A DNA stretch of 64,000 nucleotides, from positions 1 through 64,000 of the forward strand of contig NZ_LOCN01000018.1 of NCBI RefSeq assembly GCF_001574435.1, read 5' to 3'. Within the stretch, counting starts at the first letter, position 1. Each line of letters starts with the position of its first letter. The notes beneath the pieces were generated by a model. That model searched no databases. It was not told the origin of the DNA and saw only the letters and a list, made by a program, of their open reading frames with translations. The position numbers were made by a program, and so were the translations under genes. Positions 19,255-21,826 of the stretch are shown here, piece by piece. Source of the DNA: Moritella sp. JT01. GTDB lineage: Bacteria > Pseudomonadota > Gammaproteobacteria > Enterobacterales > Moritellaceae.

Positions 19255-19794
19255 CTACACTACAAACTGCTGCGCAATACGTAAGTAATGCGTTAAATCA
19301 GGATGTTCTAATTCGACATGTTTACCAAGATCATCAAACAAACGGACTTGTAATGCATCTTTATAAAACGGTTCTTGTTCGAAAGCTGTAATTTCTTTCG
19401 TATTCATAGGCCCGCCTTGTACGGTAAGTGTATCTTGCGATGCTTGACTCAGTTGACCATGATATTTTGGTTTTACAGCGCACATATAACGCTTTGCTTG
19501 CACATGCAGCGCTATACCATCAATGATTTGTTTCGGAAAATACGGCGCTAAAAATTTAGCCCCTACATCTTCATGATAACCATCAATGCCGTTCTCGGTA
19601 ATGTCTTCAGGTAATTCTAAGATCAAATGGCCAAAATCATGCAATAAGGCGGCGGTAATGATCGCGTCACAGCTATTTTTTTGCTCGGCATAATAGGCCG
19701 ATTGCAGCATATGTTCACCCATTGAAATGTGTTCGCCATAAGCCACATGACCATTTTCTTCGAACTGCTGTTTAATAAACGCCATAATATCCAT
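19255..19794 (-). CDS. HD-domain mixed-valent diiron oxygenase (PhnZ/TmpB-like)
   Basis: This 179-residue protein has the PhnZ metal ligand set with constant spacing: H28, H52-D53, H56, H74, H97 and D154, each 6-7 positions before its PhnZ counterpart (H34, H58, D59, H62, H80, H104, D161, from memory). E21 matches PhnZ E27, but the gating tyrosine is at 19 rather than at the position equivalent to PhnZ Y24. Such enzymes cleave the C-P bond of 1-hydroxyphosphonates. It overlaps the preceding dioxygenase gene by one base (TAATG). This pairing is that of TmpA/TmpB, where TmpB turns hydroxylated 2-trimethylaminoethylphosphonate into glycine betaine and phosphate. It is often misannotated as a phosphohydrolase. 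The substrate here is inferred. Confidence 0.72.
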   Translation of the reverse strand: MDIMAFIKQQFEENGHVAYGEHISMGEHMLQSAYYAEQKNSCDAIITAALLHDFGHLILELPEDITENGIDGYHEDVGAKFLAPYFPKQIIDGIALHVQAKRYMCAVKPKYHGQLSQASQDTLTVQGGPMNTKEITAFEQEPFYKDALQVRLFDDLGKHVELEHPDLTHYLRIAQQFVV

Positions 19795-20897
19795 TATTTA
19801 ATCTCCACGTTACCCTGTAATTTCGTCTCTAACTTAGTCTCAATTACCGCTAAGGTACTTTTTAAAGAATCAATATCGGCATAACAACCTTGTAGGTGAC
19901 GCGCCCCTTCTGCTGCTACTTCTCGGCCATGTAAAATACGCTCATTATTAAAGATCATCAGTTCGCCCGGTTGCAAGGTACACAAGAATTTACATTCTTC
20001 ACTGTGCAAAAGTCGGCTGAAATTTTGATACGCTTCATAAAATGCAGCCATCTCTGTAAACGGTAATTTAATCGCTTGGATAGCGCGGTTATTTAAGCGG
20101 ATTCGCTCTAGCTCACCGCTATTGTTTAACTCAATGATATAACCGGCATGTTCAAGATGCGTCTCATCATTCTTAAAGCGATAAGTCACTGGCGTCGAGG
20201 TTAATAACTCATACTGCTTTGGAAAACGTTGTTGTAATAATTGCGCGGCATAAAATCCATCCGTTAACGCGGTTATTCCGCCCTGTTCAGCACTCACTAA
20301 GCAATGTAATAACTGTAATGTCGGTACTGGATGGCGATAAGCATTATCGGTATGCAGGCTTAACGGTTTTGGGGTATAGGCTAAATTAACCGGATTTTCT
20401 TCAGAGATAACGTCGAAATGACAGCCATAATTGGTGTCGCGAACAAAACCAAACTGCGCCACAACATCTAATAACTGTTTATCTACATTAGGTACATCTT
20501 GTAGAAATGCGACACCAAATTGATTCACAGCACGTAACCAGTCACGTTTAATCGTATTACTATTCAGCACATCTGGATAGCTAAAGGTGATGCCTGATGC
20601 GGCTAACTGCCCATCCCACAATACTCGATCCGCCTTGTCCTCACAACGCTGCATACTGTCTAGGAAGTCTTGACTGTAATGACTGCAATGTCCATCTTGC
20701 CAAGTGATCACTAAACTATCATCTTCAATAGTCACCACTTCGGGTTTTATCGCTAAATCTAAATCAAGGATCTCTTGCAAGCGTTGCCCAGACGAATGTA
20801 AACAGTCGTTGCAACGACAATTATCTTTTAACCAAAAATAATGAAAAGGCTGATTATTATAAATAAGGTGAGAAGCGTGTAGTGTAAACATAGACAA
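19794..20897 (-). CDS. Gamma-butyrobetaine hydroxylase-like 2-oxoglutarate dioxygenase (TmpA-like)
   Basis: The protein has 367 residues. The N-terminal domain carries the GBBH-type zinc cluster (NCRCNDCLH, C27, C29, C32 and H34), and a TauD-type dioxygenase domain follows with the Fe ligands in LSLHTDN (HxD) and the distal His in RILHGREV, plus 2-oxoglutarate-binding Arg downstream. It should hydroxylate a trimethylammonium compound using O2 and 2-oxoglutarate. Coupling to a PhnZ-like gene suggests 2-trimethylaminoethylphosphonate as substrate rather than gamma-butyrobetaine (TmpA was itself misannotated that way). No carnitine genes are nearby. An IR TATCTA-N5-TAGATA lies upstream at 20981-20997. 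Confidence 0.75.
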   Translation of the reverse strand: MSMFTLHASHLIYNNQPFHYFWLKDNCRCNDCLHSSGQRLQEILDLDLAIKPEVVTIEDDSLVITWQDGHCSHYSQDFLDSMQRCEDKADRVLWDGQLAASGITFSYPDVLNSNTIKRDWLRAVNQFGVAFLQDVPNVDKQLLDVVAQFGFVRDTNYGCHFDVISEENPVNLAYTPKPLSLHTDNAYRHPVPTLQLLHCLVSAEQGGITALTDGFYAAQLLQQRFPKQYELLTSTPVTYRFKNDETHLEHAGYIIELNNSGELERIRLNNRAIQAIKLPFTEMAAFYEAYQNFSRLLHSEECKFLCTLQPGELMIFNNERILHGREVAAEGARHLQGCYADIDSLKSTLAVIETKLETKLQGNVEIK

Positions 20898-20980
20898 GTC
20901 CTGTTATCCAAAAAACACCAATGCAATAAGATCATCATAATCCCTTACTGCACTGATTTATTGATAAATTAATCGATACC

Positions 20981-20997
20981 TATCTACACAATAGATA
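20981..20997. promoter_or_regulatory. Short dyad in the divergent tmpA-like promoter region
   Basis: TATCTA (20981-20986) and TAGATA (20992-20997) are separated by five bases, midway in the 245-bp gap between the dioxygenase gene and the divergent cupin gene. It may be a shared operator. It is short and AT-rich, so it could be chance. Confidence 0.25.
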
Positions 20998-21142
20998 AGT
21001 ATTTATGACGCATATTCTAGACTGGGTATGTGACAGTTTTATGCGGTTATTATTTCGATAATATGAAACCTTGTCATTGTCATTAAAATTAAATAATTCG
21101 ATGCTAGTTTAATGGTGTATTCAACTAAAATAGAGCACTAAC

Positions 21143-21826
21143 ATGACACCTATTGTTTCAAAAACGGTTACAAATACTGTTCCAAATTATCTCACCCCTG
21201 ATATCGCGTCAGACCTGACTTTATTGGATATTCCTATTATTGAAGCCACTGCAGAAAGCCTAAAAGGTTATGGTTTTTTTGTCGATAACCCTGAGTCTTT
21301 TGACATCGAAATTACACGCTGGCCAGCCCAAGGCTGGCGAAAAGTCGATGAAGATACAGGTGATGAAGGTGGGGTGACTGAAGGGACCTTTATTAGTACT
21401 TGGAAAGGTGATTACTTATTTGGTCGAAATAAAGCCGTCGATGGTCATTATATTATCGGTTATAACCAACGCCCAGAAATCGCTGTAGATACCCATAATG
21501 ACAAACCAAGCCAGCTGATCTTATGGCACGCCAACTATCATCCCGATGGTGGTCAGATGTTTTATCCTAAATCTAACCAGCCATTCTTAGTGCCACTGGC
21601 ACTGCCTGGCGATGACGTGAAACCACAAGATTTTGTGTGCTTTTATTTCAGTGGTGAACGCGGCGCCTATATACATGCCGATATTTGGCACGAAGGCGTA
21701 TTTGCCATTGAAGGAGAACAAGAATTCTCCGATAAACAAGGGGCCGTACATGCCCGTGTATCGGTTGATTTTGGCAAAGAGTTTAACTGCTTATTACGTG
21801 TTGATTTAACTCAGTTACCAACATAA
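21143..21826 (+). CDS. Cupin-like protein related to the ureidoglycolate lyase family
   Basis: The 227-residue soluble protein has a C-terminal half resembling the ureidoglycolate lyase fold: PFLVPLALPGDD..P, then AYIHADIWHEGVFAI in place of the usual GVNYHRGVWHHPLLA, and VHARVSVDF. Candidate metal ligands are the His residues of IHADIWHEG. Typical AllA is about 160-170 residues, so this is longer, with an N-terminal extension containing YGFFVDNPESF and WPAQGW. It is transcribed away from the TmpAB-like pair and might act on a betaine or phosphonate intermediate; allantoin degradation is unlikely since no other allantoin genes are seen. Catalytic role unknown. Confidence 0.5.
   Translation: MTPIVSKTVTNTVPNYLTPDIASDLTLLDIPIIEATAESLKGYGFFVDNPESFDIEITRWPAQGWRKVDEDTGDEGGVTEGTFISTWKGDYLFGRNKAVDGHYIIGYNQRPEIAVDTHNDKPSQLILWHANYHPDGGQMFYPKSNQPFLVPLALPGDDVKPQDFVCFYFSGERGAYIHADIWHEGVFAIEGEQEFSDKQGAVHARVSVDFGKEFNCLLRVDLTQLPT

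Follow-up and report, generated by a model that had tools for sequence, protein, structure and literature searches.

Does a pair of overlapping oxygenase genes in a gammaproteobacterium break the carbon–phosphorus (C–P) bond of a phosphonate and, if so, of which one? The genes lie in a 64,000-nucleotide stretch of Moritella sp. JT01 (contig NZ_LOCN01000018.1, positions 1 to 64,000 of the forward strand; the whole stretch is called the window below), in a host that is probably marine. An initial annotation had recognized in them the arrangement of TmpA/TmpB, which extracts of the literature describe from the alphaproteobacterium Leisingera caerulea and which is treated, with phosphonate and glycine betaine, in parts of PMC10574752, PMC11203657 and PMC8177086. 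Our analysis indicates that the pair is probably a TmpA/TmpB-type module that would convert 2-(trimethylammonio)ethylphosphonate (TMAEP, also called M3AEP) to glycine betaine and phosphate under phosphate starvation; we infer this substrate from the sequence. The pathway is already known, and the window pair is a diverged gammaproteobacterial version of it. New here are the linkage to a binding-protein gene and the loss of that gene, a PhoB-like site, a companion operon for 2-aminoethylphosphonate (AEP) and a genus-wide shortening of a gating loop. The two genes are as follows.

19255 to 19794, minus strand: tmpB-like gene for an HD-domain mixed-valent diiron oxygenase (179 amino acids, ATG start)
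19794 to 20891, minus strand: tmpA-like gene for an Fe(II)/2-oxoglutarate (2OG) hydroxylase, taken from the genus-conserved ATG at 20891

The open reading frame (ORF) of the oxygenase was listed as 19794-20897 on the minus strand, with 367 amino acids counted from TTG 20897, and the residue numbers below follow that count. Because comparison within the genus identifies the in-frame ATG at 20891 as the common start of tmpA, we take 19794-20891 as the coding sequence. The initial annotation was right that the gene of a dioxygenase resembling gamma-butyrobetaine hydroxylase (GBBH) overlaps that of an HD protein by one base: in the junction TAATG, a single A is common to the TAA stop of tmpA and the ATG start of tmpB. 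This overlap is found in six of the seven tmpA-bearing genomes of the genus, and in the seventh (locus L020) tmpB starts 2 bases behind the tmpA stop. The ratio of nonsynonymous to synonymous substitution rates (dN/dS) is low for both genes (0.095-0.150 for tmpA in six comparisons; 0.038-0.067 for tmpB in seven), which marks them as genes under purifying selection and not chance ORFs. Relative to the nearest sister (L018), synonymous divergence of the window genes is 0.26 in tmpA and 0.69 in tmpB, an inequality that hints at recombination within the tmp operon.

The oxygenase and its active site

Pfam assigns a GBBH-like_N and a TauD domain to the oxygenase. The best match in a sequence search of the PDB was TmpA (6npb, 220 bits), ahead of human BBOX (166 bits) and DfmD (9j0j, 139.9 bits). 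AlphaFold models of the two proteins had a mean predicted local distance difference test (pLDDT) score of 95.2 and 91.3, and that of the oxygenase again matched 6npb best (Z 38.7, 2.1 Å over 349 residues; BBOX, Z 36.7). The predicted folds confirm the fold only and by themselves do not separate the rival readings of the pair.

We therefore turn to individual residues. In the alignment the oxygenase retains the iron ligands (H182, D184 and H323), the 2OG-binding arginine (R333) and an aromatic cage for a trimethylammonium group (Y157, F161, Y174 and Y339), mapped with the numbering of the iron ligands and cage residues of BBOX. At the positions of the phosphonate ligands of TmpA it has N171, N270 and R271, and human BBOX has Ala at the position of R271. 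The ligands in TmpA itself are given as N187, N287 and R288 in extracts of PMC9296572. The resulting set in the window protein, Y-F-N-Y-N-R-Y, is the TmpA set. The same source describes DfmD, of dehydrofosmidomycin biosynthesis, as a related oxygenase that also uses TMAEP, but in a biosynthetic rearrangement instead of a hydroxylation and with Ser for one phosphonate-binding Asn.

To relate these residues to genomic context we aligned 81 oxygenases, two of them from the PDB. Relatives came from a contig scan of which the best 80 of 172 loci were kept; L097 and L127 were dropped from the oxygenase set. Where the fetched locus contained an HD gene, the arginine was present in 60 of 60 rows and the set Y-F-N-[YF]-N-R-Y in 54; in rows without an HD gene the corresponding counts were 8 and 0 of 19. 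Six duplicates and a second L060 oxygenase are counted among the 60 rows, for part of the enzymes the locus means about 1.5 kb on each side, and G271 and G118 carry an HD relative elsewhere. A scan of viral contigs found no relative of the oxygenase.

The phylogeny that the initial annotation had proposed as a check gave a similar division. A careful tree was built from 48 of the 81 rows, after removal of human BBOX and further long-branch rows and of duplicates and near copies. In it the window protein lies with the HD-partnered oxygenases and crystallised TmpA on one side of a branch (support 99/94), and the HD-less, GBBH-like rows lie opposite. A quick tree of 75 rows gave the HD-linked side a support of 90 and needs three changes of the HD-linked label; Dongia L084 and the HD-less L117 are unresolved at its base, and human BBOX falls outside.

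Could the oxygenase nevertheless be a GBBH of the carnitine pathway that lies next to an HD gene by chance? Its Pfam domains would suit such an enzyme, as would a score of 313.3 bits on the carnitine_bodg model (TIGR02409) and the retained BBOX-like zinc ligands C27, C29, C32 and H70, an N-terminal CCCH site that crystallised TmpA does not have. Yet the carnitine_bodg score is under both the cut-off of 414.75 and the protein's own TmpA score, the protein has R271 in place of the BBOX Ala, the tree groups it with TmpA, and the close junction with tmpB is maintained in the genus. The PhoB-like site and the PhnS2 linkage described below also speak against this reading. Human BBOX1 itself resembles the oxygenase in fold, most cage residues and zinc ligands, and differs from it in that the window protein has Arg271 for Ala, Phe161 for Trp181 and an HD partner. 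We consider a chance-placed carnitine enzyme extremely improbable. The ten HD-less enzymes that we scanned are all under the carnitine cut-off, so they are not proven GBBHs.

The HD-domain partner and its gating loop

The tmpB-like protein has a Pfam HD domain and, in the PDB sequence search, matched TmpB best (6npa, 146 bits), with PhnZ next (100 bits). Its AlphaFold model ranks the two in the same order (6npa, Z 27.2, 1.8 Å over 168 residues; PhnZ, Z 26.0). All diiron ligands of PhnZ and TmpB are present, as H28, H52, D53, H56, H74, H97 and D154. The initial annotation had placed these ligands at a constant offset. This is exact relative to TmpB, with a single gap in the tyrosine loop, but not relative to PhnZ, where the offset rises from 6 (as far as H80) to 7 (H104 onwards).

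A quick tree of 99 HD proteins, made without bootstrap, puts the window protein within a 56-row TmpB clade (Shimodaira–Hasegawa approximate likelihood-ratio test support 95), with PhnZ outside it together with L137 and L138. The clade includes 55 genome rows. In 50 of these the same locus holds a scored oxygenase; L097 also has one, excluded because of its length, whereas no oxygenase gene accompanies the HD gene in L024, L064, L070 and L090. Elsewhere among the relatives, in a gammaproteobacterial metagenome-assembled genome, the two proteins occur as a natural TmpA–TmpB fusion of 589 amino acids (L060:6774-8540). It is comparable to PhoF, described in extracts of PMC10574752 as a fungal PhnY–PhnZ fusion.

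These placements bear on a second alternative, a PhnY/PhnZ-type pair acting on plain AEP. The HD protein is homologous to PhnZ, and sister genomes carry an AEP-type binding-protein gene upstream of the pair. However, PhnZ branches elsewhere, the window HD protein is paired with a GBBH-type oxygenase that carries a trimethylammonium cage, and PhnW and PhnX of the same genome already cover AEP, so we regard this reading as very improbable. On the NCBIfam HMP-dioxygenase PhnZ1 model the HD protein reaches 146 bits (cut-off 300). The PhnY/PhnZ pairs compared, of HF130_AEPn_1 (for AEP) and of the Gimesia type (for methylphosphonate), share with the window the HD diiron fold and its ligands and, according to parts of PMC8177086 and PMC10574752, hydroxylation followed by cleavage; they differ in the clade of the HD protein and in the partner, which in the window is of the GBBH/TauD type with a cation cage.

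The gating loop of the HD protein reads Y19-G-E21, that is YxE: the loop glutamate (E21) is kept and the tyrosine lies one residue nearer to it than in PhnZ (Y24, E27) or TmpB (Y30, E33), both of which are YxxE according to extracts of PMC8177086. In PhnZ, Tyr24 is a ligand of Fe2. The displacement of the tyrosine relative to PhnZ, from which the initial annotation had suggested a different substrate, is real. Its meaning is less clear, because YxE also occurs in 12 further HD rows outside the TmpB clade, and we therefore treat it as a tolerated variant and not as proof of another substrate.

The operon across the genus

Upstream of tmpA the window contains three further features.

20892 to 21013, minus strand: tmpA leader with a deletion scar (~20957-20960), where a deletion of about 1.07 kb removed a phnS2-like gene
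21014 to 21043, minus strand: putative PhoB box (CATAAAACTGTCAC), 10 bases and the -10 hexamer TAGAAT, upstream of tmpA
21143 to 21826, plus strand: divergent gene that partially matches ureidoglycolate lyase (PF04115), sharing the intergenic region with tmpA

Among 11 genomes of the genus, eight have the HD gene and seven the oxygenase. In six of these seven an extra gene on the same strand lies directly upstream of tmpA. The L018 copy passes the model for PhnS2, an AEP-type binding protein (447.9 bits; cut-off 392.75), and the five other copies are 91-93% identical to it. Alignment of the window with its nearest sister shows two blocks, overlapping by 4 bases where they meet, that flank a missing segment of about 1.07 kb covering this gene; as a result of the deletion the upstream region abuts tmpA in the window genome. 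A second, core PhnS2 that is 66-69% identical to the tmp-linked one is present in 10 of the 11 genomes, the match in G003 being weak. Comparison of six tmp-linked with seven core rows gave 70 fixed differences, which do not clearly point to a cation cage, and we accordingly base no substrate claim on them.

The region upstream of tmpA is conserved across eight aligned genus genomes. A PhoB-box pattern, with one mismatch allowed, matched the window once, perfectly, where 0.02 matches were expected, and the genome six times, with none for the reversed control. Two of the six lie at the AEP operon, with one mismatch each, and the remaining four are the tmpA site and sites upstream of a PstC-like permease gene (a partial match of 45 bits, under the cut-off), a HAMP-domain gene and a chromate-transporter gene. 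With a position weight matrix built from E. coli PhoB sites, the corresponding sites of L018 and L019 scored strongly (reached by 0.3% of shuffles). These motifs make PhoB control of the tmp operon likely.

The AEP operon of the window genome begins with the core PhnS2 gene, followed by those for PhnT2, PhnU2 and PhnR, with divergent genes for PhnW, PhnX and an aminophosphonate oxidoreductase dependent on flavin adenine dinucleotide (FAD; TIGR03329). All seven genes are above an NCBIfam cut-off. PhnJ of C–P lyase was found in none of the 11 genus genomes by a search whose control detects E. coli (1 of 14). The same window genome has six strong matches and one weak match to BCCT carriers. Taken together, the PhnS2 linkage in sisters, the PhoB-like site and the genome's own AEP operon support phosphonate use.

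The deletion also raises the possibility that the pair is a decaying, functionless remnant in the window strain. Losses are seen elsewhere in the genus: G002 has lost tmpA; G007 bears no trace of the three genes at the syntenic place, where just part of the divergent neighbour is left; and G003 and G009 have no match to tmpB or to that neighbour. In the window strain, however, both ORFs are intact, dN/dS against the nearest sister is 0.15 for tmpA and 0.04 for tmpB, and the promoter-like region upstream of tmpA is kept, so that decay has very little to recommend it. In G002, tmpB (L024:9248-9802) is intact (dN/dS ~0.06) and stands directly behind the old upstream region.

Other genes near the operon were compared by their occurrence. 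The PF04115-like divergent gene is found in all eight tmpB-bearing genus genomes, a co-occurrence that physical linkage may explain. In five of the eight (L020-L024), and not at the window locus, genes for a PrnB-like protein (PF08933; 626 bits for the L021 copy) and a kynureninase-like pyridoxal-phosphate enzyme lie near the tmp operon, adjoining each other at L021:6780-9152. The kynureninase-like gene, which is beside tmpB in several sisters, was considered as a phosphonate aminotransferase and ruled out, as it is far under the PhnW cut-offs. The same five genomes have a methyl-accepting chemotaxis gene beside the operon (for example, L020:10096-11979), and a chemotaxis-type gene adjoins tmpB in the Osedax symbiont L052. 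The chemotaxis gene near the operon may encode a chemoreceptor that senses the substrate.

For the other loci, neighbouring genes were called simply as the longest ORFs, a procedure that also yields some antisense ORFs. In Sneathiella L081, tmpA and tmpB stand beside genes for PhnW, PhnS2 and PhnT2; these neighbours recur beside tmpB, without tmpA, in Sneathiella L064 and L090. L081, L090 and L045 have a neighbour that resembles FAD/GcvT demethylases and is under all cut-offs. By this crude neighbour test most of the best 80 of 172 loci have no such phosphonate neighbours. Similar-looking alkaline-phosphatase-type proteins are encoded beside tmpA/tmpB in Marinomonas (L025:8572-9849) and in the Osedax symbiont (L052:1866-3101), the former by a weak family match and the latter by appearance only. 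Perhaps these proteins release a phosphonate from an ester.

Substrate, uptake and biological meaning

The reading as a TmpA/TmpB-type pair, as first proposed, is supported by the tree, R271, the PhnS2 linkage, the PhoB-like site and the AEP operon. Several observations weigh against it, or against TMAEP as the substrate. Identity to the characterised enzymes is low (36% to TmpA, 44% to TmpB), and both proteins miss the NCBIfam models, the oxygenase that of TmpA (NF049936, 349.4 bits; cut-off 400) and the HD protein that of TmpB (NF049941, 199.6 bits; cut-off 300). The relatives L025 (234 bits) and L052 (239 bits) are likewise under the TmpB cut-off. The TmpA model is moreover not specific, because L123, which has no HD gene in its stretch, reaches 403 bits on it. 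Of the positions at which 95% or more of 44 other partners agree, the genus oxygenase deviates at 16, and two of these changes (P186A and D189H) lie just behind the iron motif. All eight genus HD proteins have YxE where the remaining 48 TmpB-clade rows have YxxE. The nearest relative outside the genus differs between the two proteins, being the Osedax symbiont Rs2 in the 48-row oxygenase tree and Marinomonas MED121 in the HD tree (support 90). At the locus, the window genome has lost the phnS2-like gene and has no transporter gene adjoining tmpAB except a resistance-nodulation-division-type pump downstream, and G002 has neither tmpA nor the phnS2-like gene. Finally, the PhoB-like core is degenerate in L020 and L024, and the matrix score of the window site alone is weak, being reached by 12% of 300 shuffles.

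We also considered NCBIfam scores alone as the discriminator between enzyme types and rejected them, since the HD-less L123 passes the TmpA cut-off and the L060 fusion, with 478 bits on the carnitine model, passes that for GBBH (414.75).

Part of this evidence favours a pair that descends from TmpAB but has moved to a different phosphonate. Such a substrate would be substituted differently at the nitrogen, for example dimethyl-AEP or an analogue of choline phosphonate set free from lipids or glycans, and would still be hydroxylated and then cleaved at the C–P bond. The genus-specific loop inside the TmpB clade, the 16 oxygenase changes with their two substitutions near the iron and the missed equivalog cut-offs all fit this reading, the retained N-terminal zinc site leaves room for it, and so do the alkaline-phosphatase-type genes of Marinomonas and the Osedax symbiont. 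Parts of PMC11203657 treat differing positions of conserved residues together with specificity. Set against this, the reported TMAEP phosphonate contacts and the aromatic cage are kept, and among 48 conserved HD columns the genus has changed just two (V23I and I54F). The lower methylated AEPs would, moreover, already be covered if the TIGR03329 gene is PbfD-like: according to extracts of PMC10590968, characterised PbfD enzymes oxidise N-methyl-AEP and, in the case of PbfD1, dimethyl-AEP as well, but leave the trimethyl compound untouched. The sole pathway named there for the latter is the two-oxygenase route to trimethylglycine. We regard a shifted substrate as unlikely, with more in its favour than the alternatives above.

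If the pair acts on TMAEP as we propose, the TmpA-like enzyme would use Fe(II), 2OG and O2 to hydroxylate C1, and the TmpB-like HD diiron enzyme would use O2 to cleave the C–P bond of the resulting alpha-hydroxyphosphonate, yielding phosphate and glycine betaine, the two steps described for L. caerulea in parts of PMC10574752 and PMC8177086. The operon would probably be induced by phosphate starvation through PhoB. The window pair shares with the L. caerulea enzymes (6npb-d and 6npa) the fold, Fe/2OG ligands, aromatic cage, phosphonate ligands, diiron ligands and loop glutamate, as well as a two-gene operon (extracts of PMC10574752), and departs from them in the YxE loop, P186A and D189H. The PhnS2-type gene of sisters and the PhoB-like site are genus features set beside these enzymes in a comparison made at the level of the proteins.

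How would TMAEP enter the cell? In most tmpA-bearing relatives the operon-borne PhnS2-type protein probably passes the substrate to PhnT2/PhnU2 of the separate AEP operon; the window strain, without its own binding-protein gene, would have to rely either on the core PhnS2 protein or on a carrier of the betaine type. A targeted literature search found no TMAEP uptake system, and none of the papers found to name both Moritella and phosphonate shows the pathway in its title or the opening lines of its abstract. A fuller proposal, which we offer only tentatively, is that a phosphate-starvation operon combines a shortened YxE TmpB loop with altered control of O2 access and a permease-less PhnS2-type protein for a quaternary ammonium phosphonate that docks on a separate AEP transporter. 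If true, this would provide a TMAEP uptake system and a modular way of widening a phosphonate transporter.

As an analogue of choline, TMAEP supplies phosphate together with the osmolyte glycine betaine when it is broken down, and parts of PMC8316502 and PMC10574752 refer to the abundance of TMAEP-type phnZ relatives in the sea. In this sample the set Y-F-N-Y/F-N-R-Y, together with a neighbouring HD gene, splits TmpA-type from GBBH-like enzymes where the NCBI models fail. The role of the YxxE spacing and the route of TMAEP into the cell become testable questions. Because PhnW/PhnX, an aminophosphonate oxidoreductase and a TmpAB-like pair co-occur, a single organism may be able to use both AEP and its methylated derivatives in the absence of C–P lyase.

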